Below are positions 4,848 to 18,477 of a DNA stretch of 64,000 bases, piece after piece. The notes beneath the pieces were generated by a model, which saw only the letters and a program-made list of their open reading frames with translations, had not been told where the DNA came from and did no database searches. The DNA comes from Desulfomonile tiedjei DSM 6799 (GTDB lineage: Bacteria; Desulfobacterota; Desulfomonilia; Desulfomonilales; Desulfomonilaceae), in NCBI RefSeq assembly GCF_000266945.1, contig NC_018025.1, positions 6,018,001-6,082,000 on the forward strand, written 5' to 3'. Positions within the stretch are counted from its first letter, which is position 1; every line of letters starts with the position of its first letter. A program made the translations under genes and the position numbers.

Positions 4848-5098
4848 GAAAGTGATGGCCGCTGATTGATGATCAGAGATTGTCGAAGAAATCTTGGGGG
4901 GGATACTCCGGCTTGTTTCAGAATACCGCGTAGTGTTCCGACCGCAAGTTCCCGGTGCAAAGGGACCACGCACCCAATCTCGGCTTCCGGCAATTTTTTC
5001 AGGACGACATGACTCCCACGCTGTCTGACTTGCACAAAGCCCAGACGCTCCAACGTTCGAATAACGGTCTTTCCTGAAACGCGCTTCAGTTCAACCAT
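4766..5098 (-). CDS. hicA: HicA-type mRNA interferase toxin, frameshifted near the C-terminus
   Basis: Translation from ATG 5098 gives MVELKRVSGKTVIRTLERLG, then VRQRGSHVVL with the catalytic His of the double-stranded-RNA-binding-like HicA fold, then VVPLHRELAVGTLRGILKQA. In a run of seven C (minus strand; 4896-4902) the frame changes: as written, translation continues for about 40 unrelated residues to 4766. With six C it would end GVSPQDFFDNL and stop at 4873-4875, exactly the normal family end. The start overlaps the 3' end of hicB. Either the toxin is impaired, or the run is a slippage site, or the base is an error. Family role: ribosome-independent mRNA cleavage, neutralised by HicB. 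Confidence 0.8.
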   Translation of the reverse strand: MVELKRVSGKTVIRTLERLGFVQVRQRGSHVVLKKLPEAEIGCVVPLHRELAVGTLRGILKQAGVSPPRFLRQSLIINQRPSLSYLMSVSPISNFIISMALIRSSSLRGR

Positions 5099-5300
5099 AT
5101 GTCGCTTCAAACGTAGTCATGATCACTCGGGAAGTTTTCGGATGTGGAAATTCCTCAAGGTATAGCTCGGTGGCCTCCTTGAGATTGGCAACGGCTTCCT
5201 CCAGAGTGTAGCCTTGGCTAACCGTGCCTACCTCAGGGCATTCGGCAACGAACAGGTCATCTTCCTTGTGAACAACCGCGGTAAATGTTCGTTCAGACAT
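5091..5300 (-). CDS. hicB: HicB-type antitoxin
   Basis: This 69-residue protein begins MSERTFTAVVHKEDDLFVAE, followed by CPEVGTVSQGYTLEEAVANL, the partial RNase-H-like fold shared by HicB antitoxins. The ATG at 5300 is chosen over longer in-frame starts because GGAGGAG precedes it at the right distance and homology begins there. There is no C-terminal DNA-binding domain, so it belongs to the short HicB class. It is upstream of hicA and overlaps it by eight bases, giving coupled expression; HicB is expected to bind HicA and mask its active site. Confidence 0.85.
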   Translation of the reverse strand: MSERTFTAVVHKEDDLFVAECPEVGTVSQGYTLEEAVANLKEATELYLEEFPHPKTSRVIMTTFEATYG

Positions 5301-5399
5301 GGTATCGTTACTCCTCCAAATATCATATACACAATCTGCTGTGGTTTCAATTCGAAACCAACGGTTCATAGCTGCGCACTGCTGGTTCACGCATGCGAT

Positions 5400-5556
5400 G
5401 CGCAGCGGGGTTCCCGGATACAAAGCTGACGCCATTGTAGGGCACGGGAACAAGAAGAAGTCCTTACAGGCCCTTTATCTGAATATTTCTGATCAGCAGC
5501 GCTTGGATGCGGTAGATATGATGAAGTTTGATACGGGGAGACAGATATACGTGTGA
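5400..5556 (+). pseudogene. 3' fragment B of a tyrosine recombinase gene
   Basis: The plus-strand frame reads MRSGVPGYKADAIVGHGNKK, then KSLQALYLNISDQQ and VDMMKFD, with stop TGA at 5554-5556. This is the last ~50 residues of a phage-type integrase (helix with D-A-I-V-G-H, then the tyrosine in ALYLNIS). The upstream codons do not extend into an integrase core. About 60% of the residues match fragment A, so the two are diverged copies flanking hicBA as direct repeats. Confidence 0.65.
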
Positions 5557-5620
5557 GGAAGTGAGCGCGAGCGGTAGTCTGACTAAAGCCAGGCGATCCA
5601 AAGCAGCTTTTGACCTCATT

Positions 5621-6439
5621 TTAATCTTGCTGCAATTTCGTCCCAAGAAATATCAGGGTTGTCAACATAGCGGCTTGTGCGGCGAATACTTCAGTATCAT
5701 ACGGCTGATTGTTAAATAACCATGAGATCTTATCCCAGTAGAAATTAATTCCCAGAATGGCGAGTCCCAAAATATATAATACACCAAGTCCGAAGTATTT
5801 TACGGCGTTCAAAGTCATTGTCCTTCTTGCGGAATTCGCAATCTTTGAAGACATCGGCTGATTCGCAGCTTCGACAGCTTTCCGAAAACTCTTGAGTAAT
5901 TCTGTATCGCCTAAAACGGGCTTAATTCTCTCCATATACTCATCGACTTCTTCTTGGATCTGCTCCTTTACTTGGTCGATCAAGATGTCTCGCAAGAAGT
6001 CGGGTTTCTTGTGACGCCCCTTGGCTCTTCTTTGGGTTCTGTATAGAACCATAGTTACGAGCCTATCGTCTTTCTTTAGTTTGAACTCCCTGTCTAGGGT
6101 ATTCCTGAGGGTTATCAATAGAGGACCGGTCCATCCTGGGTCCACAGTCGTCGAAATATGGGAAAGTCCTTTAGAGACCAATGAAACTCTGGAATGAAGA
6201 GTCCCCCCGATTCTGCTGGAAACCCAGACGGACTCTTTTGTCAAGATCTGAATAGTGCTGCGAGGAGGCAGAGTATAGACTCCATTCTCAGGTCGGAGCA
6301 ACCTCATGTCCAGAGCATAAACAAAATCTCCCACCCTGAGGTCATACCCCATGGGCATTAGGCAGTTTTCTGAAAAGGGTTCAATTATGATGTCTTTTCC
6401 AAGAAGCCTAGCAATGGAGGTATCGGTGAGTAGAGGCAT
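5621..6439 (-). CDS. dUTPase/dCTP-deaminase-like domain protein with two C-terminal membrane helices
   Basis: Residues 1-150 of this 272-residue protein follow the dCTP deaminase/dUTPase fold: MGYDLRVGDF near residue 30, HSRVSLVSKGL near 82-92, and VDPGWTGPLLITLRN at 99-113. The Asp of VDPGW is kept, but the position of the deaminase catalytic Glu (L-E-F in Dcd) is Thr110. Residues 155-205 are charged helix. Two hydrophobic segments, about 213-233 and 250-268, should anchor the protein with the nucleotide-binding domain in the cytoplasm. Such fusions are not housekeeping Dcd. A nucleotide-sensing or depleting role in defence is possible but is inference. It lies among mobile-element remnants. 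Confidence 0.7.
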   Translation of the reverse strand: MPLLTDTSIARLLGKDIIIEPFSENCLMPMGYDLRVGDFVYALDMRLLRPENGVYTLPPRSTIQILTKESVWVSSRIGGTLHSRVSLVSKGLSHISTTVDPGWTGPLLITLRNTLDREFKLKKDDRLVTMVLYRTQRRAKGRHKKPDFLRDILIDQVKEQIQEEVDEYMERIKPVLGDTELLKSFRKAVEAANQPMSSKIANSARRTMTLNAVKYFGLGVLYILGLAILGINFYWDKISWLFNNQPYDTEVFAAQAAMLTTLIFLGTKLQQD

Positions 6440-7214: not shown

Positions 7215-7328
7215 CTAAATTCAGCCCCAAACAAAAACAGGGAAGTTGGAGTTGCCCAACTTCCCTGTCCGCATGGTATACTATTTTGGCGTCCCCAAGG
7301 GGATTCGAACCCCTGTCGCCGGCATGAA
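7215..7328. repeat. Displaced tRNA-Glu 3' end (att copy 1) with preceding hairpin
   Basis: Bases 7288-7323 repeat the 3' end of tRNA-Glu (CCA end through the T-arm), and the match continues past one mismatch to 7328. About 50 bp to the left is a hairpin, AACAGGGAAGT paired with AACTTCCCTGT, that also precedes copy 2 at about 7,983. The D-arm and acceptor 5' side of the tRNA are absent, so this is an attachment-site duplication rather than a tRNA gene. The rest of 7113-7425 holds nothing coding that I can support. Confidence 0.8.
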
Positions 7329-8023: not shown

Positions 8024-8080
8024 GGTATAATATTTTGGCGTCCCCAAGGGGATTCGAACCCCTGTCGCCGGCGTGAAAGG
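7973..8080. repeat. Displaced tRNA-Glu 3' end (att copy 2, left end of the main island)
   Basis: Bases 8037-8080 match 44 of 44 bases of the intact tRNA-Glu gene (18401-18444), covering the CCA end, T-arm, variable region and part of the anticodon stem. The match breaks at 8081. To the left are the same hairpin and TATTTTGG spacer as at copy 1. Being identical to the end next to the integrase, this is the left attachment site of the 10.4-kb element. Confidence 0.88.
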
Positions 8081-8197
8081 GCGATAGGGCCATACTAGAA
8101 TAAACGCTCTAAGCACTTTTCCCTAATGATTCTCGTCAAATAACGTCCTGATTCGACTGCACCAAAACTGAGCAATCCGAACCAATCCACCCAAAAA

Positions 8198-8216
8198 GGG
8201 TAACTTTTGGGAAACT
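8198..8216 (+). promoter_or_regulatory. Direct repeat shared by the two island ends (left copy)
   Basis: GGGTAACTTTTGGGAAACT at this site matches GGGTAACTTTCAGGAAACT at 18344-18362 in 17 of 19 positions, in the same orientation. The left copy is 118 bp inside the left attachment core and the right copy 37 bp inside the right core. Repeats placed this way are typical arm-type binding sites for a tyrosine integrase. Confidence 0.5.
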
Positions 8217-8258
8217 TCGCTCTATCAGAGCGTTTCAGAAGCATGGGGATTGGTGAGG

Positions 8259-8741
8259 CTACCAAGGCCAGAAATGCCCACCTGCACTATCGTCTTTTAC
8301 GACAGCCAATGAATCATCTGTTTTCCAGAAATTGTGTCGGGATTGAATACCGGTGTCGTCTGATTTCTCCAGAGGCACGGTGTCAGGATTAAAAGCACTC
8401 GTAAAATTGCCTACTGGTGCGAGGTACTCGATTTTTCTCTGCCAGAACCGAACTTCTTCCTGGAGCTTCGCCAATTCCTTGGCTTCATTGGCCCGTCTAT
8501 CAGATTGTTTCCTCATGGTCCGCACATCGTCTTGAATCGACCGCACATCGGCGACAGCCCGCTGTAATTTCTGAATCGCTGTATCAATCATGGTTGTTTC
8601 CTTCCCTGTATCAGCTTTCACAATCTGAAACGGTATTTGATTTGCCCCTTTGGGCACGAGGCTGATAAACTCAACGTCGATTCCCGTTAGTTTGTTGACT
8701 GGGACCCATTTTTCGACCCATTCGACAGTTTTAATCGCCAT
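8259..8741 (-). CDS. Small coiled-coil protein with an XkdF-like phage motif
   Basis: The 160-residue product starts MAIKTVEWVEKWVPVNKLTG and continues with VEFISLVPKGANQIPFQIVK, a motif shared with XkdF-type and related phage head-maturation proteins (E-F-V-S-L-V-P-x-G-A-N). Residues 55-105 form a charged coiled coil. It is much shorter than XkdF and lacks a protease domain. AAGGTGG precedes the ATG, and the gene follows 8751-9398 with a nine-base gap, so the two form an operon. A role in interacting with phage particles is conceivable; this is inference from one motif. Confidence 0.5.
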   Translation of the reverse strand: MAIKTVEWVEKWVPVNKLTGIDVEFISLVPKGANQIPFQIVKADTGKETTMIDTAIQKLQRAVADVRSIQDDVRTMRKQSDRRANEAKELAKLQEEVRFWQRKIEYLAPVGNFTSAFNPDTVPLEKSDDTGIQSRHNFWKTDDSLAVVKDDSAGGHFWPW

Positions 8742-8750
8742 TTCGCCACC

Positions 8751-9398
8751 TTAACTCGCCTTGCGACCCGTTTTCTCAGAAATGGGGGTTAGGTGGGCTC
8801 TGGGATCGCGAGAACCAAGAGGAGCCAAAAGCGCTTCCCAGGTCAAATCGTAATTTGTCAGGCGAGCAAAGAAACGTTCGTACAGCTCCACGACATATCC
8901 CTTGTATTTCTCGCGTCGCGGTCTATTCGCCTCGATAGACATGACCAATTCCAGAGTGATCGGGACGTGCAATGGCTCCGGATTCGCCTTCAACCATTTT
9001 TGCATGACGGCGAAACTAGACACAGATTGCTTCCAAATCTTATAATCGTTGGGTGAGAGAACAGCTTTCGCAAATGAATCTTGCGATTCCCGCCATGCTT
9101 TGCGTTGTTCCGACAAATCCGTTTTGGCAAACTGGCTCAATGCAGACCTGAAATCCTCGACACTCCATCCTTGCTCTTGCCTGATTTTTTGGAGTAGACA
9201 GATTCCCCGGTAATTGCGACCGCGATTAATGTCTCTGGAGTGCTGCACAGTAAATGCCGCGCCTATGAGCGCTTGTAATTGCGGTGCTGGCATTGCGTCC
9301 ATAAGCTCAACACATTGGCGAAAACCGCGGTCTAAAAGGTGGTATCGCACCTCGTAAATATCGGTAGAGTATGCCTGAATCGAATTCGAGTTTTCCAT
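8751..9398 (-). CDS. Island protein of unknown function
   Basis: The 215-residue soluble protein, rich in Arg, Gln and aromatic residues and mainly helical by pattern, has no motif I recognise. AGGAAAGG precedes the ATG at 9398 at eight bases. It has no signal peptide or membrane segment. Co-transcription with the downstream XkdF-like gene and position at the far end from the integrase place it in the cargo or interference part of the island. Confidence 0.55.
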   Translation of the reverse strand: MENSNSIQAYSTDIYEVRYHLLDRGFRQCVELMDAMPAPQLQALIGAAFTVQHSRDINRGRNYRGICLLQKIRQEQGWSVEDFRSALSQFAKTDLSEQRKAWRESQDSFAKAVLSPNDYKIWKQSVSSFAVMQKWLKANPEPLHVPITLELVMSIEANRPRREKYKGYVVELYERFFARLTNYDLTWEALLAPLGSRDPRAHLTPISEKTGRKAS

Positions 9399-9464
9399 AA
9401 TGTATGCCTTTCCTGAGATATCCGTTATTTCAATTGTTCAAAAATGAGCGTGCGGTGGTTGTCT

Positions 9465-9689
9465 CTACCATTTAGAGCGCGACCCGCGTCTATTCGCAAT
9501 ACTTGGCCTATCGTTAATGGTGGTTGTCATACCTAACGCACGCGCTACGAACTCACGAGTCAATGCGGAAATAGACATAGCACGTTCATTCGCCATGTTC
9601 AGTAATGCATTGTGCATACTCTGAGGGAGCTTGAATGTCACAATGGACGTGATAGGCTCGATTTGAACGTCATTATGGAATTGATTCAT
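9465..9689 (-). CDS. Ribbon-helix-helix (CopG/Arc-type) DNA-binding protein
   Basis: This 74-residue protein starts at ATG 9689 after GGAGATG; the longer in-frame extension upstream is ignored because it lacks homology and a ribosome site. Residues 15-50, SIVTFKLPQSMHNALLNMAN and SISALTREFVARAL, give the beta-strand/helix/helix pattern of RHH repressors. It lies first in the minus-strand block with 8751 and 8259 and is divergent from the serine recombinase, so it may repress its own and the recombinase promoter across the 530-bp gap. Confidence 0.7.
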   Translation of the reverse strand: MNQFHNDVQIEPITSIVTFKLPQSMHNALLNMANERAMSISALTREFVARALGMTTTINDRPSIANRRGSRSKW

Positions 9690-10220
9690 ATTGCATCTCC
9701 TATAAATTGAGCAGGAACTTCCTGCGTACCGTCTCAGCCTGAACTGTAGTATTTCGGCTGATTTCATAATTATGGCGCTGCAATCATCCTGTACCAATTC
9801 CATGCAGCAATGGTGGTATACCCTAGATAGAGAGCAGTGGCAACATATATTCGATGCGAAACAGTCACATACTCACCCTGAAAATTTGCTGCGCATTGGC
9901 GGGCGTTTCGCGACCGGTGGCCATAGCCGCACATTTCCAAAAAATTTAGGATCCATACCCAGGTGGGGGGTAGCACTCCCAGCGTTTAACCTACTGACAT
10001 AACTACCGAAACGCCAATCGTGCTACGCAGACCCCCTATGCACCGACCATGTTTTTGTACACAACTGCGGTCCCGATTATGTACAGAATCATCGCACGGT
10101 TGCGAAAGATGATATCATTCAGGCACTTTACAACTATTATCGCAAGTATCGCACTTTGCTATTGACTGATTATGACATTCGTGCGAAACTTGCGATAGAT
10201 AAGAAACAGGGAGAACGGAT
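9690..10220. promoter_or_regulatory. Divergent intergenic region rich in TCGCA/TGCGA motifs
   Basis: No gene is supported here. The right half (10,080-10,200) contains at least six TCGCA/TGCGA pentamers, including ATCGCAC, GTTGCGAAA, TATCGCAAGTATCGCAC and TTCGTGCGAAACTTGCGAT. On the left a short palindrome, GCAGGAACTTCCTGC, lies just before the RHH gene. TTGACT within 10,160-10,190 could be a -35 for the serine recombinase, but I cannot choose a -10 with confidence. Confidence 0.45.
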
Positions 10221-10940
10221 ATGAAGAGAGCAGGACGTAAAGAACAGGCAAGAGGAAAAGCAAATCCGAATACTGCAATTATCTATTGTCGGGTGAGCAC
10301 TCAGAAACAAGCAAGCAAAGGGATTTCTCTTGATATGCAGCTTGCCAGGTGCACAGAGTATGCGGCTAACCGTGGTCTGAAAGTCCTGGATATCATCATT
10401 GATGCCGGTATTTCTGCAAAGGACGTGGAACACCGACCCGGTATGCGCAGAATAATAGATATGGCCAAGAATCGCACCGTTGCGCATATCCTCTCTTTCA
10501 AACTTGACAGGCTATTCAGGAACACTCAGGACACGCTGAACGCAATGGAGATGTTCACGAGATACGGTGTCAAGGTCCACCTTGTGTCCGAATGTAGGAT
10601 AGTGCAGACCGAGAGTGCCGATGATGAGTGTATGCTGGGTTTTCAGGCTGTAATATCCACTCACGAACGGAAACGCATCGGAGAGCGCACCCGTGCAGCA
10701 CTGGCGAGAAAACGAGAGCTTGGCGAATTCACCGGTGGACGTGCACCATACGGGTATAGATATGCGAACGGTGGATTTGTCGTGGACGCGACCGAACAGG
10801 ATATCATTCGCAAGATGCGCACATTTCGGAATCACGGTTACTCTCTGCGTAAAGTGGCCGTATGTCTGAAACAGGACGGAATCACGAATCGGTCTGGTGG
10901 AATGTTTCACCCGAATCAAATCCAGAAATTGTTGGGTTAG
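10221..10940 (+). CDS. Serine recombinase (resolvase/invertase family)
   Basis: In this 239-residue protein, residues 18-160 form the resolvase catalytic domain: AIIYCRVSTQKQ with nucleophile Ser26, GISAKDVEHRPGMRRI, and FKLDRLFRNTQD with the active-site D-R-L-x-R pattern. The long E-helix HERKRIGERTRAALARKR follows, then GGRAPYGYRY and a short C-terminal DNA-binding part. It is intermediate between small resolvases (~190) and large serine integrases (>400). AGGGAGAA precedes the ATG. In an island that already has a tyrosine integrase, its likely job is DNA inversion or resolution, or it may be residue of a second element. Confidence 0.85.
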   Translation: MKRAGRKEQARGKANPNTAIIYCRVSTQKQASKGISLDMQLARCTEYAANRGLKVLDIIIDAGISAKDVEHRPGMRRIIDMAKNRTVAHILSFKLDRLFRNTQDTLNAMEMFTRYGVKVHLVSECRIVQTESADDECMLGFQAVISTHERKRIGERTRAALARKRELGEFTGGRAPYGYRYANGGFVVDATEQDIIRKMRTFRNHGYSLRKVAVCLKQDGITNRSGGMFHPNQIQKLLG

Positions 10941-10954
10941 TATTGACGGTACGA

Positions 10955-11015
10955 ATAAGGCGATTGTTCGCAATTGTGCGAACATCGCACCTTTGATAAT
11001 ATTCGCAAGAATAGG
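10955..11015. promoter_or_regulatory. Putative operator with GTTCGCA/TGCGAAC inverted repeat
   Basis: Between the serine recombinase and the next gene lies GTTCGCAATTGTGCGAAC, an almost perfect palindrome, followed by ATCGCAC and ATTCGCAAG. The same TTCGCA core recurs upstream of the recombinase. The arrangement suggests a repressor site controlling the downstream gene; the RHH, XRE or HTH/RHH products of the island are candidate binders. Confidence 0.4.
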
Positions 11016-11030
11016 AAGGAAGGGTTGATT

Positions 11031-11723
11031 ATGAGTTATGAGGTTAAGCCGAGCGCTAAAGAGCGTATCATGGAATTGAAAAAGGCTGGCAAGAGCTATG
11101 CCGAGATTACCGAGACACTGAACCACGAGGGTTATTTGAACTCCAAAAGCGCACCGTGGACGGTGGGTGCTGTTCAGATGACCCATGACCGGGAAAAGAA
11201 GAGGCTCGAAAAAGAGGGTAAAGAGGCGAAGCCTGCGAATGATGCGCAAATAGTAGGGGCGTCTGAAACGTCGCAAGATGCGCATGTATCGCACACTGAA
11301 TCGGTGGCTGACGAGACTATGGATAATGGCGAAACGTGCGAGACTTGCGAGACTAGACAGCAGGACGAACCGGTGAATACTACCCCCACAATTGCAGAGC
11401 TGACAATCGCAGACTTGCGAAACTTGATACGAAAGGAAATGAAAACCATGATTGATGCGATTGGTGCGAACCATGCGAATACTGCGACCGTTGCGAATAC
11501 TGCGCAAATTACCGAATCGGATATCCCGCCCGCTATACCCAAGGTGGCGAAGACGAAGAGATTTCAGGGTGAAAGAGCTACATTACCCGGGTGCAGAATA
11601 GACAAAGTGCTTGCCGACCTATTCGAGGACGAACGGAAAGAGGCGAGAATAAGCGCATCAGAGCTGATGCAGCGCATTTTGTGGAATCGGTATGGACATC
11701 CGAAACTGAGTTTTGAAGAGTAG
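11031..11723 (+). CDS. Putative DNA-binding protein with N-terminal recombinase-like HTH and C-terminal RHH-like region
   Basis: The 230-residue protein begins at ATG 11031 after GGAAGGAAGG; the upstream in-frame ATG lacks a ribosome site. Residues 5-50, ERIMELKKAGKSYAEITETL with NHEGYLNSKSAPWTV, look like the helix-turn-helix in the 'recombinase' domain of serine integrases. The middle (60-170) is low in complexity and rich in Ala, Thr and Glu. The end, CRIDKVLADLFEDERKEARI then SASELMQRIL, looks like an RHH helix pair. It follows the serine recombinase by 90 bp and may be its accessory factor. I do not know a named family. Confidence 0.5.
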   Translation: MSYEVKPSAKERIMELKKAGKSYAEITETLNHEGYLNSKSAPWTVGAVQMTHDREKKRLEKEGKEAKPANDAQIVGASETSQDAHVSHTESVADETMDNGETCETCETRQQDEPVNTTPTIAELTIADLRNLIRKEMKTMIDAIGANHANTATVANTAQITESDIPPAIPKVAKTKRFQGERATLPGCRIDKVLADLFEDERKEARISASELMQRILWNRYGHPKLSFEE

Positions 11724-11890
11724 GAAGACGAGCAGGAGACACTTCGAGAAGAATTAGAGGCCAAGGCCAAGTGACATCGTAAAACTTCTTGACTCCGGTA
11801 CGCGTTTTGATATGACCCAAGGCACGGGAGGTAGAGAAACATAAAACCTTGGATGCACCTGCACATTCAAGGGAAAAAGAGGGTTATGTC

Positions 11891-12118
11891 ATGACGCGAT
11901 TGGAATGTATGAGGCGACTGTTAGGCTTAACGCAGCTCGAATTAGCCGACCGTATTGGTTATGGGTGCTCCACACCGATTTCAGTTGTAGAGAGGGGTTC
12001 GACCCCATCGCGACCAGTTGTTACAGTGCGATTCAAAAAATTGTTAGAGCAGTATTTCGATGTTCCGTTTCCCAAATTGGCTGAAAAACTCGATTTATCC
12101 AAGCTCTTGACGCAGTAA
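11891..12118 (+). CDS. Short XRE-family helix-turn-helix regulator
   Basis: The 75-residue product starts MTRLECMRRLLGLTQLELAD, followed by RIGYGCSTPISVVERG, a Cro/C1-type HTH in which the recognition helix is followed by V-E-R-G. The ATG at 11891 is selected because homology starts there. It is a single-domain protein, typical of mobile-element repressors. The palindrome TGTCGAATTCGACA about 190 bp downstream, in front of the prim-pol gene, is a plausible operator. Confidence 0.7.
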   Translation: MTRLECMRRLLGLTQLELADRIGYGCSTPISVVERGSTPSRPVVTVRFKKLLEQYFDVPFPKLAEKLDLSKLLTQ

Positions 12119-12134
12119 TTAGCAGTAATTCGTC

Positions 12135-12320
12135 GTATCTCTCCCCCCCTGTTTCCAGGCGTGTATGACAAGCTACGTGCTCGTGTATGACACCTGGAAA
12201 AAATAAAACCCATCTGGTGAGGATGGGTTCCTGGAGAGATTCCGATGGAAAAAATGATGTGATGACCATTTATTTATTCAAAAACTCCCCATTTATCAAG
12301 CATTTTTGTCGAATTCGACA
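12135..12320. promoter_or_regulatory. Regulatory region before the prim-pol gene: repeats and a perfect palindrome
   Basis: Three signals occupy the 284-bp gap. GTGTATGACA occurs twice in direct orientation, set between TTTCCAGG and CCTGGAAA. An AACCCATC/GATGGGTT hairpin has a T-run on the minus-strand side. A perfect 14-bp palindrome, TGTCGAATTCGACA, lies at 12307-12320. The palindrome sits about 85 bp before the prim-pol start and is a good candidate repressor site. Confidence 0.5.
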
Positions 12321-12402
12321 CGAAAAAAATCGCGTTGGTGCACATACATCTGCGCACTGCGCGTTCGTTCATTGTGCAATTGTTCAATTTAGGAGGTTTG
12401 TT

Positions 12403-15105
12403 ATGGAAACTAATACTGCGGAATCTTACATTGAGACCGTACCTGATGTTCACGATACCCCCGTTGAAAAGGAATTCGAGATTTTATTATGGAACGAAGC
12501 GGCTTATAGGCTACGCTGTGCAATCGATATAATTCCGTGGACCCGAGAGAATTACCCGGAACTCTGCCGAGCTGACGGAACATTCCAGTGCAGTGGGTGC
12601 AGTGGGGATATGGTCCCGGAATCGACCCTAGCCACCTGTCCGGACGCTATCCCTTCATCGTTTAATTGCAAAGGTTCGTGTGGCGAGAAATCGCGAAACA
12701 AAGAATCGTTCAACATCAAAGCAGATATGGAACACACCCCATTAAGCGTTGCTATGCACTCTCTGGCCGCCGAATATTTGAATGCCGCAATATCCGACGG
12801 TGAAGGACAGGAAAGCGTTAAAAGGCAGGGGTCACTGATTCAGGCCGCATTTTTTTACGCTGACAAAGGCTGGCAAGTTCACGATATTTTTGAAATGAAC
12901 CGCAAAAACCAATGTTCCTGCGGGAATCCCAAATGCGAATCACAGGGTAAGCACCCGCGGCGGGACCGCTGGCAAGAGCGCGCGACCACGGATAAAAAGA
13001 AGATTTTGGCAATGTGGAGCGGAAGAAATTGTCATTCTAATATTGGAATTCGGACAGGGAAAGAATCAAATCTTTGCGTCGTGGACGTGGACGGTGAGGC
13101 AGGCCGTGAGAATTTCGATGAACTGAAACAGAGGGTGGATATCCCGGACACCTTCCGGGTAATAACCGGTTCCGGAGGATTTCACTACTATTTCACCAAA
13201 CCCGCAGACATGGAATATTTCACCGGTGGAACTGACGTTTTCGCAGACAAAATCGACTTCCGGTGCGACGGAAACTATGTGCTGGCCCCCCCGTCAAACC
13301 ACGAATCAGGCAATCAATACGAGTGGGATCCTGATTGCATATCGTCCGGTGTACAGATAGCAGAGCTTCCGCTGGGTTTGCTGGAAATTGCGAGACAGCA
13401 AAAAGCATCTGGCAGTGGGAAAATTGAAGGTAACGGGAAAAGCAAACCGAAAGGGGATGCGGTCTCACCGACCGGGAAAAAGCGTTTTGAGATTCCAGAG
13501 AACGCGCCAGACGGGACACGCAATGAGACACTGTTTCGATTAATCCGAAGCTACAAAGGGAAGGGCTTTTCCGAAAAAGAGACACACTTCAATGCTTTCA
13601 ATTTCAATCGAGACCGCTGCATACCTCCGAAAACAGACGATGAATTCGAGAAGATTTTTACACACGCATGGTCGTATCAAAATTCTGCTAAATCCAAATT
13701 TTATCATGAGGACAGAATCGTACGTGAACCGGACAAGATACTGTTTTTTTCGGAAAAAGAGACAGTCGACCTTTTTGCACCGCACGCTTGTGCTACTGGC
13801 TTGGTAGGTGGATATGCCAACGCGACCGGGACCGAAAAATTGCCCGGAAGCATGCAGGGGGACGAACGGAAAATCTTTATTTTCCTGGAATCACAAGACC
13901 CCGCCGACGTTGCTGGTTCCCAAAAACTCGCATCAGGACTCGCTGAAAATAATAAGTTTTTGAAAATTGTCGACCTCGCACCGTTTTTTGACGGTAAAAG
14001 CCTGAAATCATTATTTGAAAAAAAGGGTTTTGACCACGTGAAGCAAGTCCTGACCGATGCTGCTGAGAAGTCGGAATGGTATGCACCGCCTATCCTTCAG
14101 ACGTCGCAAGGCAGGGTTATCGAGATATCAAACTATGTGGACCTTTTGCAGAAAGAAATTCCCGAACAAGATTGGATTATTCAGGAATTCGTCCGTGAAA
14201 GCAATTTAGTGATTTTGGCCGGTCCCCCGAAAGTCGGAAAAAGCTTAATAACACTTGGCTGGTGTCTCGAAGTGGCATCCGGTGGTTATGCGTTCGACAG
14301 GTTCAAATGTGCGCAAGGGAAAACATTGAACGTCGCACTCGAAGACCCCGAGCGCAGATTACAAACTCGTTTGCGCAAAATCTCACGGGGGAAGCCGATG
14401 CCGCCCGGAGGATTATTTACTAGAGATTGGCCGTTGCTCCCCGAGGGCACAACTATGCTGGAGCGCTGGTTAGATGCGAATGAGGGGGTTAAGCTGGTTG
14501 TCCTGGATACTCTGCAAAAATTGAAACCTGCAAAGGACAGGCACGGGACTGAATACGAGTTGGATTACCGGACAATGGGAGGACTCCAAAAAATTGCGAT
14601 TGAACGGAGTCTTTCTATAGTCGTGGTGCACCATTTGAACAAAGGGAAGAATAACGAGGGCGGAGACCTTTACGCCAGGGTACTGGGAAGCACAGCGCTT
14701 ACGGGGGCTGCTGACAGCATTTTGATTTTGGAACGGGACCGCTTGTCGACAGAGGGGACCATATTTGTCTCGGGACGGGACATTGAGGAAAAGAAGCATA
14801 GCGTGGCTTTTGACGTGGAAAGTCTCACATGGAGTTATTTAGGAGAAGCATCGGACGTGAAGCGCTCAAGTGAGGCTAACGAGGTTAGGGACATTTTGAG
14901 AGCTTCCGAGGGTAAGCCTATGTCAGTTGCTCAGATTGCAGAGAAGACGAATCCGAGGGTCAGAAGCGACACCATACGGAAGCGTCTTGACCGGATGGCG
15001 AAACGCGGAGAAGTCTTAAAAGCAGCGGGGATGTTCGGGAAATACGTTTTGCCACCGGACGACTTGCATTACGGTGGTTCGCCTGAATATGGTGGGCGTT
15101 TCTAG
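12403..15105 (+). CDS. Primase-polymerase/helicase replication protein
   Basis: This 900-residue protein begins at ATG 12403 after AGGAGG. Residues ~140-330 are a bifunctional primase/polymerase domain: CSCGNPKC zinc-like cluster, VVDVDGEAG with catalytic acidic residues, and GSGGFHYYF. Residues ~360-430 match the primase C-terminal helical domain (NAPDGTRNETLFRLIRSYKG). Residues ~590-810 are a RecA-like ATPase of the RepA/DnaB class with Walker A GPPKVGKSLI and Walker B LVVLDTLQKL, then VVVHHLNKG. The last ~60 residues carry a winged-helix pattern. This single-protein replication initiator, found in phages, plasmids and satellites, would unwind and prime at the iteron region directly behind it. 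Confidence 0.88.
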   Translation: METNTAESYIETVPDVHDTPVEKEFEILLWNEAAYRLRCAIDIIPWTRENYPELCRADGTFQCSGCSGDMVPESTLATCPDAIPSSFNCKGSCGEKSRNKESFNIKADMEHTPLSVAMHSLAAEYLNAAISDGEGQESVKRQGSLIQAAFFYADKGWQVHDIFEMNRKNQCSCGNPKCESQGKHPRRDRWQERATTDKKKILAMWSGRNCHSNIGIRTGKESNLCVVDVDGEAGRENFDELKQRVDIPDTFRVITGSGGFHYYFTKPADMEYFTGGTDVFADKIDFRCDGNYVLAPPSNHESGNQYEWDPDCISSGVQIAELPLGLLEIARQQKASGSGKIEGNGKSKPKGDAVSPTGKKRFEIPENAPDGTRNETLFRLIRSYKGKGFSEKETHFNAFNFNRDRCIPPKTDDEFEKIFTHAWSYQNSAKSKFYHEDRIVREPDKILFFSEKETVDLFAPHACATGLVGGYANATGTEKLPGSMQGDERKIFIFLESQDPADVAGSQKLASGLAENNKFLKIVDLAPFFDGKSLKSLFEKKGFDHVKQVLTDAAEKSEWYAPPILQTSQGRVIEISNYVDLLQKEIPEQDWIIQEFVRESNLVILAGPPKVGKSLITLGWCLEVASGGYAFDRFKCAQGKTLNVALEDPERRLQTRLRKISRGKPMPPGGLFTRDWPLLPEGTTMLERWLDANEGVKLVVLDTLQKLKPAKDRHGTEYELDYRTMGGLQKIAIERSLSIVVVHHLNKGKNNEGGDLYARVLGSTALTGAADSILILERDRLSTEGTIFVSGRDIEEKKHSVAFDVESLTWSYLGEASDVKRSSEANEVRDILRASEGKPMSVAQIAEKTNPRVRSDTIRKRLDRMAKRGEVLKAAGMFGKYVLPPDDLHYGGSPEYGGRF

Positions 15106-15109
15106 TAAA

Positions 15110-15370
15110 AGAACCTGTCCGAGTGTCCGAATATATATGAAAGAGTAATGATTACTTATATATATATTAGGACACCCCTATTGTCCTAGGGTGTCCGAGG
15201 TGTCCGAATTTATGCATGAAGACGTTTTTAACCAGCTCTCTTTTATATCCGGACATGCACGGACACCCTCGGACACCCCCCCTGTCCGAAATATGTTACT
15301 GGATTTACAAATTAAAAGACGGATTCGGACACCTGGACATATATATAGAGTTTTTGTCCGAATCGTTTTG
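15110..15370. other. Putative replication origin: GTCCGA iterons around an AT-rich core
   Basis: Immediately after the prim-pol stop, at least ten GTCCG cores (eight of them GTCCGA) occur within 260 bp in both orientations, mostly as GTGTCCGA. They flank AT-rich stretches: ATATATATG, a palindromic AGTAATGATTACT, and TATATATATATTA. Iterons plus an AT-rich unwinding element beside the initiator gene are the usual layout of plasmid and SaPI-type origins. A 66-codon frame across this region is composed of the repeats and is not a credible gene. Confidence 0.65.
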
Positions 15371-15442
15371 ATTGCTGACGAGATTGATTAACCTGGAATT
15401 TTTGCCAGGACGAACGTGAATTATTATCGGAAGGACAGAATT

Positions 15443-15958
15443 ATGAATCGCTTGATTGCTGGTGACGAGCAGACGACGTATGGGCCCTATCGACTGACAC
15501 GCGAGACGGTGGACAGGTGGCCATTATTGGTGAACTGCTACAGCGAAAAGATGCGAGACGCGATGCTGAGAGCATCCATTATGGGATACTTCGTCAATCC
15601 ATTCCCAAAGGTGAAATCGCCTTATTACCGATGGTGCTCCAATGTGCTCATTCCGTTCATTGGATTTACTCCGCGGAGAACCAGAGCAAGCATTTTGGTC
15701 GATCTGCTTCCAATGTGTGCGGAGTTTCCGGAAAATGCTCTTGACGAGCTGGCAGAAATATTACGGCCTCATGCGGGACGGAATAGTTTTGCAGTGGGGA
15801 TTGCATCATACGTCGACCATGTGCGGGTGCGAGATATTGACGCGTTGGGTAAGAGGCTGGTGGAGTTCGTTCAGGCCAATGCGACGTATCGAGAGCCAGA
15901 GAGAAGCGAATTTGAGCAACGGCTGGGAGTTGTCAGGCCAGCAGCATTGACGTGCTAA
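15443..15958 (+). CDS. Island protein of unknown function
   Basis: The 171-residue soluble protein begins at ATG 15443 after GGAAGGA; a GTG 27 bases upstream is less well placed. It is rich in Arg and aromatic residues (SPYYRWCSNVLIPFIGFTPR) and mainly helical in the second half. No motif is recognised. A hairpin of 11 bp follows the stop (15966-15999) and probably ends its transcript. Its place between the putative origin and the integrase module suggests a replication or maintenance accessory role, but that is only position. Confidence 0.5.
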   Translation: MNRLIAGDEQTTYGPYRLTRETVDRWPLLVNCYSEKMRDAMLRASIMGYFVNPFPKVKSPYYRWCSNVLIPFIGFTPRRTRASILVDLLPMCAEFPENALDELAEILRPHAGRNSFAVGIASYVDHVRVRDIDALGKRLVEFVQANATYREPERSEFEQRLGVVRPAALTC

Positions 15959-15965
15959 GTTGCGC

Positions 15966-15999
15966 GGGGATTCAGCGTGGTAATTCGTGCTGATTCCCC
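15966..15999 (+). terminator. Strong stem-loop after gene 15443-15958
   Basis: GGGGATTCAGC (15966-15976) pairs perfectly with GCTGATTCCCC (15989-15999) across a 12-base loop, seven bases after the stop codon. There is no T-run, so it may be a processing or rho-independent-like stop of weak type. Confidence 0.45.
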
Positions 16000-16132
16000 C
16001 ACGTCCAGCAATCGGGACATGCCAGAGATTGACGTGCGGGTGAGACAGCACTAACTTAATTCGACGCGGCTAACAATGACATATAACAAAAATAAAGGCT
16101 TAATCATTTCGAGCACTTGCGCGTCATGAAAA

Positions 16133-16396
16133 ATGGTGCGAGTGCAGGGAATAAATGGTTACAGTTTTTCGATGCAGAATCAGTGTGCTGAGATCAAGAT
16201 ACGCGCGGAGCGGAAAGCGGGTGAGATGTTGGAAAAGATAGAGAAAGATAATAGGGGACGTCCCCTAAAAAACCCGTCGCACGATGAAACAGGTTTTTCC
16301 CCAAAACTTTCAGACTTCGGAATCTCTCGCTCCTCTTCCTCCCGCTGGCAATCGGTCGCGGCTATACCGGAAGAACAGTTTGAACAGCTGCGTTAA
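16133..16396 (+). pseudogene. Fragment of a mobile-element protein with SMC/ParB-linker-like pattern
   Basis: The frame contains QNQCAEIKIRAERKAGEMLE and then SHDETGFSPKLSDFGISRSS with SRWQSVAAIPEEQFEQLR and a stop. I recognise this as the middle of a protein family common in phages and islands, where it is preceded by an A-Y-A-R-Q-A-K-N segment and followed by a longer C-terminal helix. Both flanks are missing here and no good ribosome site is seen, so it is probably a truncated gene. The family function is unknown; the motif resembles helix-turn-helix parts of ParB-like proteins. Confidence 0.5.
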
Positions 16397-16712
16397 TGGT
16401 GCGCAAAGTTTGCGTAGGATAAAAAGGTATTGACAGGCTTCACTGATTTTCGATATCAGGTGGACCACTATCAACAGAGCGTAACAAATTGATTGCTGTC
16501 AATTCCCAGAATTGGCAGAGAACGGGATTTCCCATAGTATTGAGGGTAATTGCTTGCGATGCGCGTAATTGGATGTCCGGTCTGTGTAGCTTCCCTGCTG
16601 CACCCTATCGTCTCTGAGAAGGGTACGCTGATTATGGTGCTACCCTGAGACAAGTTGCATCCTTCAGGATGTGCCCTGCACTAGACAGGGATTAACGCGA
16701 GGTGAAATATGA
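16397..16712 (+). promoter_or_regulatory. Gap before the Xis-integrase pair, with a candidate promoter
   Basis: No gene is supported in these 316 bases. TTGACA at 16430-16435, followed after 17 bases by ATATCA (16453-16458), is a plausible promoter for the downstream HTH-integrase pair. CGCAAAGTTTGCG just upstream (about 16411-16424) is a near-perfect palindrome and a possible operator. GCATCCTTCAGGATGTGC near 16,660 forms a small hairpin. Confidence 0.45.
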
Positions 16713-17150
16713 TTGAATCACCTAAACGAGAGCGCAACAGAAGGGCCATTTGAGCATTCGACTGACGAGCTGACGAATTCCACAAATCCCATCCCCCAGC
16801 TATTAACCCCAAAGGAAGCAGCTACCCTACTGCGCATAAGCATCAAAGCGCTTAACGCGTTGGCTCATGCTGGTAAAATCGGTTACGTCTGGAAAAATAA
16901 TCGAGAGCGTGGATATTTCCACGAGCATTTGAGGCAATACCTCGCGGCAAGAGAAGTGGTTGCGACCCTATCTTGTGCGAGGAAGAGGGGACCGGTTGTA
17001 CCGGTAGAACCGTGCAAATCGGTTGACAATCGCGTCTCTGAGTCTTTACGATTCCGCCCGAAAGGTGGTGGTGACAGTAGGACGCGACGAGAATCAGAAA
17101 GAGGGAAGGTGTTTAGAGCACAGCTTCGAGAGGAGATGTGCAAATGGTAA
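16713..17150 (+). CDS. Excisionase/AlpA-like HTH protein
   Basis: The 145-residue protein, from a TTG start after GAGGTGA, has a helix-turn-helix of the MerR/HTH_17 excisionase type at residues ~30-75: QLLTPKEAATLLRISIKALN and AGKIGYVWKNNRERGYFHE. The C-terminal third is basic (RKRGP..., FRPKGGGDSRTRRESERGK) and could bind DNA non-specifically. Its stop overlaps the integrase start by seven bases, so the two are translationally coupled. A directionality factor or activator of integration/excision is the likely role. Confidence 0.65.
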   Translation: MNHLNESATEGPFEHSTDELTNSTNPIPQLLTPKEAATLLRISIKALNALAHAGKIGYVWKNNRERGYFHEHLRQYLAAREVVATLSCARKRGPVVPVEPCKSVDNRVSESLRFRPKGGGDSRTRRESERGKVFRAQLREEMCKW

Positions 17151-18349
17151 CACGGAGAACCAATAAACAGGGTATTCAGGATAGTGTCTGGACAGTCTAC
17201 TTTAAGCCATTTCGGGACCGTAAAATCGGTCTGAAACTTGAGACCACGAGCAAACGTGAGGCTATGGCGATTGAAGCAGCGATATTGAGAGCGTGCAGAA
17301 GTGCGGATTATTCCATCCTTGACGGTGAGGCGCGCGAGGCATGTGCCCGTATGTTCAGAAATCAGGGCTGGGAATTGCCAGAATGTCTCGGTGGTACGAC
17401 GGTTCCCGTGGAAGAACTGACATTGTGGCGTGCGATTCAGACGACACTCAGTTACCCAGACATTCGAGACAGCTCGAATCGACAGAGGATGCAAGAGGGA
17501 TTCGCGCATCTGGTCGAATTTTTCAGTAAAGGTTTTGCGGTAAAAGAACTCTGGATACACCATATAAAGGAGTATCAGAGAGCGCGACAGGCTGAACATG
17601 CAGCACATAGCACGATAAACAAAGAGATTGCCGCACTGTCGAAACTCTTCCAGGTGCTCATTGAGTTGCGAGAGATTCAGGTTAATCCGTGCAGGTCTGT
17701 GAAGCCATTGACAGAGAAGAACGATAAACGACAGGTCTACATAAGCCATGCGGATTATCAACGCATCATTTCCGCTTTGCCTGACTGGTACGTCCCCATC
17801 GTTCAGACTGCCTACTATACTGGTATGCGAAGAGGCGAAATACTTGGGCTGACGTGGAATCGAGTCAATCTGAAATCACGGATCGTCTATCTAGGACCGG
17901 ATGACGTGAAGGAACGAAACTTCAAGCGTGTTCCGATTCATCAAGACCTACTCCCCATTTTGGACCGGTTGCGTAAACAGATAGTCGGCGCCGAACACGT
18001 CTTTCATCGTGAAGGCGACCCGATTACGCACAAATATCAGGTCCGGTGGCCTTGGGATAGGATAGTCTCGAAACTGGAAGGGTTGAATCCTACTCCGCAC
18101 TTTCATGACCTGAGACATACGTGGAAGACGAATGCCAGACGTAGCGGTATGGACATGGAACTTCGCGAAAGTATTCTTGGGCATGCGACCCGAGGAAAGA
18201 GCATCAGCGAGGGTTATGGCGTTATCAGTGACGCTGAACTCATTCAGGCAATCGACCGGATGACGTTCGACCACGGGGAAACAATGATATGGGTTCCGAG
18301 TGCCAAAAGAAAAAGCAGACAGGGAGTAGCTGTCTGCAATTTTGGGTAA
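17144..18349 (+). CDS. int: Tyrosine-recombinase integrase of the tRNA-Glu island
   Basis: This 401-residue integrase has an N-terminal arm-binding part (1-100), a SAM-like core-binding domain (~110-200), and a catalytic domain with Arg in TGMRRGEILGL (~227), HDLRHTW (~321), the LGHATRGK segment (~345) and the nucleophile Tyr in ISEGYG (~356). The ATG at 17144 is preferred to the GTG at 17138 because GAGAGGAG is then eight bases away. It ends 50 bp from the intact tRNA-Glu, with a terminator hairpin built into its last codons. It should join the attachment core in the tRNA 3' end with the one in the circular element. Confidence 0.92.
   Translation: MVTRRTNKQGIQDSVWTVYFKPFRDRKIGLKLETTSKREAMAIEAAILRACRSADYSILDGEAREACARMFRNQGWELPECLGGTTVPVEELTLWRAIQTTLSYPDIRDSSNRQRMQEGFAHLVEFFSKGFAVKELWIHHIKEYQRARQAEHAAHSTINKEIAALSKLFQVLIELREIQVNPCRSVKPLTEKNDKRQVYISHADYQRIISALPDWYVPIVQTAYYTGMRRGEILGLTWNRVNLKSRIVYLGPDDVKERNFKRVPIHQDLLPILDRLRKQIVGAEHVFHREGDPITHKYQVRWPWDRIVSKLEGLNPTPHFHDLRHTWKTNARRSGMDMELRESILGHATRGKSISEGYGVISDAELIQAIDRMTFDHGETMIWVPSAKRKSRQGVAVCNFG
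18315..18343 (+). terminator. Terminator at the end of the integrase gene
   Basis: GCAGACAG (18315-18322) pairs with CTGTCTGC (18330-18337), followed by AATTTT. It overlaps the last codons of the integrase. A second small palindrome, GCTAGATTTTTCTAGC-like (18367-18382), lies between it and the attachment core and may be part of the right attachment site. Confidence 0.65.
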
Positions 18350-18362
18350 CTTTCAGGAAACT
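18344..18362 (+). promoter_or_regulatory. Direct repeat shared by the two island ends (right copy)
   Basis: GGGTAACTTTCAGGAAACT matches the left copy at 8198-8216 with two mismatches and overlaps the integrase stop codon. It is a candidate arm-type integrase site 37 bp from the attachment core. Confidence 0.5.
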
Positions 18363-18399
18363 CAAAGCTAGATTTTTTCTAGCAAATATATCTAAGTAT

Positions 18400-18477
<78 letters not shown>

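Follow-up and report, generated by a model that had tools for sequence, protein, structure and literature searches.

Iteron array behind a Prim-Pol/RepA-type helicase initiator gene as the very probable replication start of a tRNA-Glu element in Desulfomonile tiedjei, and covariation of iterons with the recognition helix among its relatives

To our knowledge, few replication origins have been mapped among mobile elements relying on primase-polymerases. For SaPI (rep/ori) and SCCmec (Cch2/ori), a short-iteron origin located directly downstream of the initiator helicase gene and recognized by the C-terminal domain of the initiator is described in the available part of PMC7581432, which also reports that Cch2 requires 5-nt AAGTG iterons. 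In RSF1010, the iteron binder, helicase and primase act together, while ORF904 of pRN1 combines Prim-pol, helicase and winged helix and has its origin directly 3′ of the gene (PMC4234260, replicons as covered in its available part). For PLE, the available portions of PMC8263062 and PMC7145576 describe covariation between the origin-binding domain of RepA and the iterons of ori, which function only as cognate pairs. PrimPol-PV1 elements are integrated and encode PriCT, RepA-type helicase and winged helix fused to archaeo-eukaryotic primases (available part of PMC5862659). The locus considered here was analysed within a stretch of 64,000 nt, hereafter the window (Desulfomonile tiedjei DSM 6799, NC_018025.1, positions 6,018,001-6,082,000, forward strand). 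It shares the layout of SaPI rep/ori, with iterons directly downstream of the initiator gene; however, initiator helicase and primase are separate in SaPI and SCCmec (PMC7581432, available part), whereas here Prim-Pol, RepA-type helicase and winged helix reside in one protein. The remark of the initial annotation that the repeats and their arrangement came from no origin class it recognized was right only in part, since such a layout is known from SaPI and from crr of phage P4.

The array belongs to an element of ~10.4 kb (about 8035-18444) integrated at tRNA-Glu and encoding a tyrosine integrase; integrase, att repeats and tRNA target, the attributes of an integrative mobile element, are all present (Table 1). 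A third copy of the tRNA-Glu 3′ end, 38 bp long, lies outside the element at 7286-7323 and points to an older insertion, of which the 0.75 kb separating it from the att site at 8035-8080 may be a remnant. Outside the element, 5621-6439 (minus strand) encodes a dCTP deaminase-like protein with a long C-terminal extension. Prim-Pol, helicase and winged helix of the initiator are encoded in one open frame and form one polypeptide. Compared with solved structures by sequence profile, the helicase part is closest to RSF1010 RepA (1g8y, E 1.7e-16). The AlphaFold2 model of aa 644-971 has mean pLDDT 93, and its C-terminal winged helix is composed of helices aa 888-906, 914-920 and 927-939 with a short wing, R931 and K932 of the recognition helix being specified by codons 14977-14982. 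The 50 Foldseek matches listed for the initiator model show helicase and recombinase folds (DnaB, Rad51, RadA, Twinkle, etc.), so that the assignment of the winged helix rests on the secondary structure of the model and on profile matches to MarR-type, RPA32 and Z-DNA-binding domains. The stretch 12190-12365, situated before the initiator, has 84% protein-level identity to its counterpart in the element of the related locus L019 (~8727-8897), though the initiators themselves are ~49% identical; because in L019 this counterpart occupies a frame other than that of the gene, the stretch may be a conserved regulatory leader.

Table 1. Features of the tRNA-Glu element, with positions counted from the first nucleotide of the window
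Feature	Position	Strand	Basis or remark
Other att site of the element	8035..8080	.	46-bp exact repeat
Initiator gene: Prim-Pol, PriCT_1, AAA_25/RepA-like helicase, C-terminal winged helix	12403..15105 (open frame from 12187)	+	Pfam; profile; AlphaFold2
Prim-Pol domain, aa 223-395 of 972-aa frame	12853..13371	+	PF09250 E 4.5e-42
AAA_25 / RepA-type helicase domain, aa 651-820	14137..14646	+	PF13481 E 3.9e-28
Winged-helix recognition helix, aa 927-939	14965..15003	+	Helix in AlphaFold2 model
Iteron array, candidate replication origin	15115..15362	.	10 exact TGTCCG and 3 one-mismatch cores; densest 6-mer cluster of the window
Iteron TGTCCG	15116..15121	+	
Inverted repeat around AGTAATGATTACT palindrome	15123..15175	.	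AT-rich 21-nt arms, 86% complementary
Iteron TGTCCG	15124..15129	+	
Degenerate iteron TGTCCT	15169..15174	-	
Degenerate iteron TGTCCT	15182..15187	+	
Iteron TGTCCG	15192..15197	+	
Iteron TGTCCG	15201..15206	+	
Iteron TGTCCG	15250..15255	-	
Iteron TGTCCG	15260..15265	-	
Iteron TGTCCG	15270..15275	-	
Iteron TGTCCG	15283..15288	+	
Iteron TGTCCG	15326..15331	-	
Degenerate iteron TGTCCA	15334..15339	-	
Iteron TGTCCG	15355..15360	+	
Conserved gene, no family match	15446..15958 (open frame from 15416)	+	Homologues in the same place in L019 and L020
HTH_17 protein, probable excisionase	16713..17150	+	
Tyrosine integrase	17138..18349	+	PF00589 E 2.1e-18
att site at tRNA-Glu 3′ end (tRNA 18400-18477, minus strand)	18399..18444	.	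46-bp exact direct repeat with 8035-8080

The initial annotation had reported at least ten GTCCG cores in both directions within 260 bp, accompanied by ATATATA stretches and a small palindrome and placed immediately downstream of the initiator gene, and this observation is confirmed as real. The segment 15110-15370 contains 10 GTCCG against 0.53 expected from the window-wide density (10 against 0.19 for TGTCCG and 13 against 0.64 for TGTCC); AT-rich ATATATA runs are found at 15131, 15157 and 15340, and AGTAATGATTACT occupies 15144-15156, across the loop between the 21-nt arms of the inverted repeat. The first core begins at 15116, 10 bases from the initiator stop codon, which ends at 15105. 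Six exact TGTCCG cores are forward and four reverse, and together with the three one-mismatch variants they make 13 cores within 248 bp, that is, several short repeats adjoining an initiator gene, as in iteron origins. The unit proposed as GTCCGA is better written (G/C)TGTCCGA(A/G), with 8 of the 10 TGTCCG cores extending to TGTCCGA. Centre-to-centre distances of 8, 44, 14, 10, 9, 48, 10, 10, 14, 42, 8 and 22 reveal tight groups of cores with 42-48 bp between them. As single-stranded DNA the array folds strongly (z -7.67, none of 200 shuffles being as good), which we take to be mostly due to the inverted iterons; an origin of the pRN1 kind, consisting of a stem-loop only, was rejected for this locus given the presence of iterons, even though the folding is good.

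Repeats without function, arising by chance or from coding constraints, are extremely improbable here: no point in favour of this explanation was found, and in 1000 dinucleotide-shuffled versions of the 1 kb around the array no 6-mer exceeded 6 copies, whereas 10 are observed, which led us to reject chance. The array lies behind the stop codon and is overlapped only by an unsupported 66-codon open frame, and its paired arrangement is unique in the genome, where GTGTCCGA-(0..80)-GTGTCCGA, a pattern covering same-strand pairs only, has 3 matches, all within the array. Outside the array, none of the 300-bp windows (1274 overlapping windows over 64 kb) exceeds 6 copies of any 6-mer. The possibility that GTCCGA is a generally dense genomic word, which the initial annotation had wanted to see checked by a genome count, was rejected as well, since the window is not enriched (32 found against 43 expected) and same-strand pairs are confined to the array; TGTCCGA occurs 1263 times in 6.53 Mb, or about once per 5.2 kb.

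On these sequence data the array is very probably the site where replication of the element starts, and the reading as a whole, namely that it is the origin of the tRNA-Glu element, bound via the winged helix, melted and primed by the initiator, is given a probability of about 85%. The candidate origin of the initial annotation is supported, as neither outcome named there as refuting it was obtained: the repeat reaches no comparable density in other parts of the genome, and arrays stand at this position behind many homologues. Under this scheme the element would excise from tRNA-Glu before replication, the C-terminal winged helix of the initiator would dock on the TGTCCGA iterons with K932 reading base 5 and R931 base 7, the RepA-type helicase ring would open neighbouring AT-rich DNA inside the array, for which the inverted repeat is a possible melting region, and the Prim-Pol domain would make the first primers for the host replisome. 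The main rival explanation sees in the array an initiator-bound accessory or copy-control site resembling crr, with strands opening elsewhere in the element. Such an arrangement exists in phage P4 (NC_001609, the record of which marks type 1 repeats), where the iterons directly 3′ of alpha, mostly TGTTCACC, constitute crr and ori is a second cluster of the same repeat ~4.5 kb away. In the element 8035-18444, however, no second cluster with more than 5 copies of any 6-mer per 300 bp was detected, by which scan another origin-like cluster was rejected, and the array has an AT-rich inverted repeat of its own; we consider a crr-like role unlikely and retain the array as the probable origin.

Related initiators were found at two further places in this genome. 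The nearest paralogue, L019, adjoins tRNA-Pro, is 49% identical over the C-terminal part and has an array of 12 TGTCGC copies just 3′ of its gene; L020 adjoins tRNA-Val and comprises one Prim-Pol-like open frame and another that matched only in the part before the helicase, 3′ of which weaker repeats TTGTCCC/GGGACAA are present (5 copies in 300 bp). Since these repeats differ from TGTCCGA, the elements of one genome carry different repeats in the same place. The gene following the array, modelled weakly (pLDDT 64), has homologues in L019 (12034-12642, 52%) and L020 (10116-10616, 28%). By eye, the gene pair 8259-8741 and 8751-9398 (minus strand), which gave no convincing Pfam match, resembles 4897-5415 and 5425-6105 (minus strand) of L019. 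A further explanation, less probable than the crr-like one, would make the array an operator or partition site for another protein of the element, such as the small HTH protein encoded at 11849-12118 or the product of 15446-15958. Short repeats running in both directions fit operators or centromeres too, and a gene of the 15446-15958 type follows the array in all three elements of this genome; what speaks against it is the linkage of arrays to the initiator itself, both in location and in sequence, as given in the next two paragraphs.

Relatives were collected by scans with helicase and winged-helix alignments covering genome and viral contigs together with 297 genomes from the phylum of this bacterium; an initial alignment was too heterogeneous for scanning, the A4 scan gave 10 loci, and a single-protein scan of the viral contigs returned no relative. 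For many of the first 160 contig loci, the end of the initiator gene was where the densest 6-mer of the entire locus occurred. When loci were clustered at 50% identity and 450 bp at the match end were taken (L206 and L223 being dropped for too-short translations), at least 7 copies of one 6-mer occurred in 17 of the 42 cluster representatives versus 18 of 1738 control windows from the same loci, and for 20 of the 42 the end-of-match stretch surpassed every control window of its own locus. One Streptomyces-rich cluster of 75 loci inflates raw counts; merging of identical C-terminal 150 residues reduced 447 matches to 312, and removal of downstream segments under 300 bases left 307 distinct initiators. 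At least 8 copies of one 6-mer were found for 106 of these 307 versus 49 of 2104 controls, and at least 6 copies for 197 versus 377 of 2104, which means that 201 initiators have fewer than 8 and 110 fewer than 6. TGT or ACA is contained in the top 6-mer (at least 6 copies) for 93/197 initiators versus 8/377 controls. The 142 arrays with at least 7 copies are distributed between those wholly behind the stop codon (39), wholly inside the open frame (50) and spanning the stop codon (53), and this recurrence behind initiators, often inside their 3′ ends, argues against an operator or partition site of some other protein. Plasmid examples with repeats inside the gene are Caldicellulosiruptor bescii pATHE01 (TTCACTC) and Anabaena pANACY.03 (TTGTCCAA). 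The proposal of the initial annotation to look for the same repeats behind homologous genes held for their place but not for their sequence, which is usually different; one repeat common to all homologues was rejected, as the sequence changes from element to element. Two related initiators of Streptomyces brasiliensis, L183 and L197 (NZ_BMQA01000020.1), are encoded ~19 kb apart, have TGTCCGG and TGTCCCA iterons, respectively, and differ in their recognition helices, presenting a natural test of compatibility. In small Prim-Pol proteins (L024-L028), the repeats are situated in the gene between primase and helicase, adjoining a mid-protein region that by eye resembles a winged helix.

Residue-base codes exist for geminivirus iterons. 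For the initiators collected here, covariation was assessed in a set of 110 with TGTNNN iterons (effective number 51.5), the others of the 307 being excluded because the top 6-mer had fewer than 6 copies, TGTNNN was not clear or the match ended at least 60 positions before the profile end. Weighted, shuffle-corrected mutual information was calculated for each iteron base against each helicase or winged-helix column, and where a motif could be read as either TGTCACA or TGTGACA (six cases), TGTC was assumed, base 5 being A either way. Residue 932 gave the largest shuffle-corrected values for bases 4 (z 6.1) and 5 (z 9.2), with one helicase column (T788) slightly higher in z for base 4 and residue 928 third for base 5. 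Gln932 is combined with TGTCA in 22 of 22 cases, Lys932 with TGTCC in 14/18 and Arg932 in 43/45 (57/63 for Lys and Arg together), and Phe or Tyr with TGTTA in 5/5, while TGTCA is also met once each with Val, Met, Glu and Leu at this position. The initiator of the window obeys the rule (K932 with C5, R931 with A7); the paralogue L019, with K932 and TGTCGC, is an exception. In a pair test, which after removal of near-duplicates (68 kept) used pairs 40-80% identical in the helicase and 309 columns, residue 932 ranked first for base 5 and only eighth for base 4, residue 931 was first for base 7, and residues 928/929 showed no clear-cut association with base 6. Within TGTC iterons C7 accompanies Lys931 in 11 of 13 cases and Arg931 in 1 of 24. 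In a tree based solely on helicase columns (winged helix left out, 78 rows), residue 932 changes state between Gln and Lys/Arg 14 times, and base 5 shifts as expected in all 7 of the independent pairs placed on supported branches (p 0.016); for residue 931 and base 7 on average 3.6 of 4 independent pairs agree, too few for a test. The 15 helices with TTA-type iterons combine Gln with TTAT (4) or TTAC (3) and all other residues with TTAC, so a link of Gln to TTAT is suggestive only. The residue rule applies to TGTC iterons alone. Because the recognition helix covaries with the iteron, recognition of iterons by the C-terminal part of the initiator is supported, and comparison with relatives suggests which residues read which iteron letters. 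That iteron bases covary best with this helix, in a calculation made for the initiator only, likewise makes an operator or partition site quite improbable, and the reading as an initiator-bound origin is kept.

Initiators left out of the covariation set served for checking the rule. The held-out count was restricted to DNA 3′ of the helix codons, to which these codons cannot contribute, and yielded 6 TGTCA-rich versus 1 TGTCC-rich segments for Gln932 (31 unique helices) and 2 versus 14 for Lys/Arg932 (38 unique helices), the others being rich in neither (Fisher p 0.0017 for the contrast of Gln with Lys/Arg); as the unused initiators had been excluded mainly for having no clear TGT top motif, this set is held out rather than random. 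A cruder count over 141 unused initiators separated the groups less well, with more TGTCA in 14 and more TGTCC in 12 of 33 helices with Gln, 6 and 26 of 44 with Lys/Arg, and 12 and 13 of 39 with other residues. A new search through 882 genomes of three groups whose centres were already known added 28 initiators reaching the winged helix, 9 of them with an array of at least 6 copies. None of the 28 has Gln932, and the 8 Lys/Arg members have no TGTC array (at most 3 TGTCC, in L497), so in this set the rule is neither supported nor refuted.

Taken from sequence comparison, a broader proposal is somewhat favoured: these initiators would constitute a family of single-protein replicons whose origins are element-specific iteron arrays at the 3′ end of the gene. 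A few residues of a single helix would set origin specificity, Gln932 pairing with A5, Lys/Arg932 with C5 (with its G partner) and Lys931 with C7, giving orthogonal pairs. If so, a family uniting Prim-Pol, RepA helicase and winged helix would be widespread in integrative elements, plasmids and phages, and joint changes of helix and iteron would generate many mutually orthogonal origin/initiator pairs. Sequence alone would suffice to place its origins at the end of the initiator gene, two residues would predict part of the recognized sequence in the case of TGTC iterons, and many orthogonal origins would become available for vectors. An iteron of its own with a matching helix would allow each of several elements to coexist in one cell without cross-recognition, and incompatibility may be the cause of the diversity. 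It would become possible to test how initiators of replication acquire new specificities and how one cell accommodates several related elements (three here, with different repeats).

Among described systems, the PrimPol-PV1 and PrimQH elements were compared by domain architecture, which is alike; origins are not described in the available part of PMC5862659, the main text of which does not contain the word “iteron”. For PICMIs, no iteron origin is described in the available part of PMC10803314, and our search of the open-access literature found no description of iteron arrays across Prim-Pol/RepA fusions or of a helix-iteron code. P4 alpha is likewise a primase-helicase-origin-binding fusion with a repeat cluster directly 3′ of the gene, but has a bacterial-type (Toprim) primase (available part of PMC4234260), whereas Prim-Pol PF09250 and RepA-type helicase are found here, and P4 possesses two separated clusters of another iteron in place of one. 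RSF1010 has in common the RepA-type helicase, by the profile match mentioned above, yet its RepA, RepB′ and RepC are separate, in contrast to the single polypeptide of this element, whose gene is followed directly by 8-9 bp iterons. In the archaeal plasmid pRN1, the helicase belongs to SF3 and the origin is a 100-nt stem-loop without iterons (PMC4234260, available part), unlike the iteron array of this element. PLE initiators have a RepA_N domain, without predicted primase or helicase, and ~30-bp semi-palindromic iterons, and no residue-base code is described in the available portions of PMC8263062 and PMC7145576. An iteron origin behind its initiator is already known, and the present array would be a variant of it; novelty seems to lie in the breadth of the diversified family and in a recognition helix whose link to the iteron can be read.
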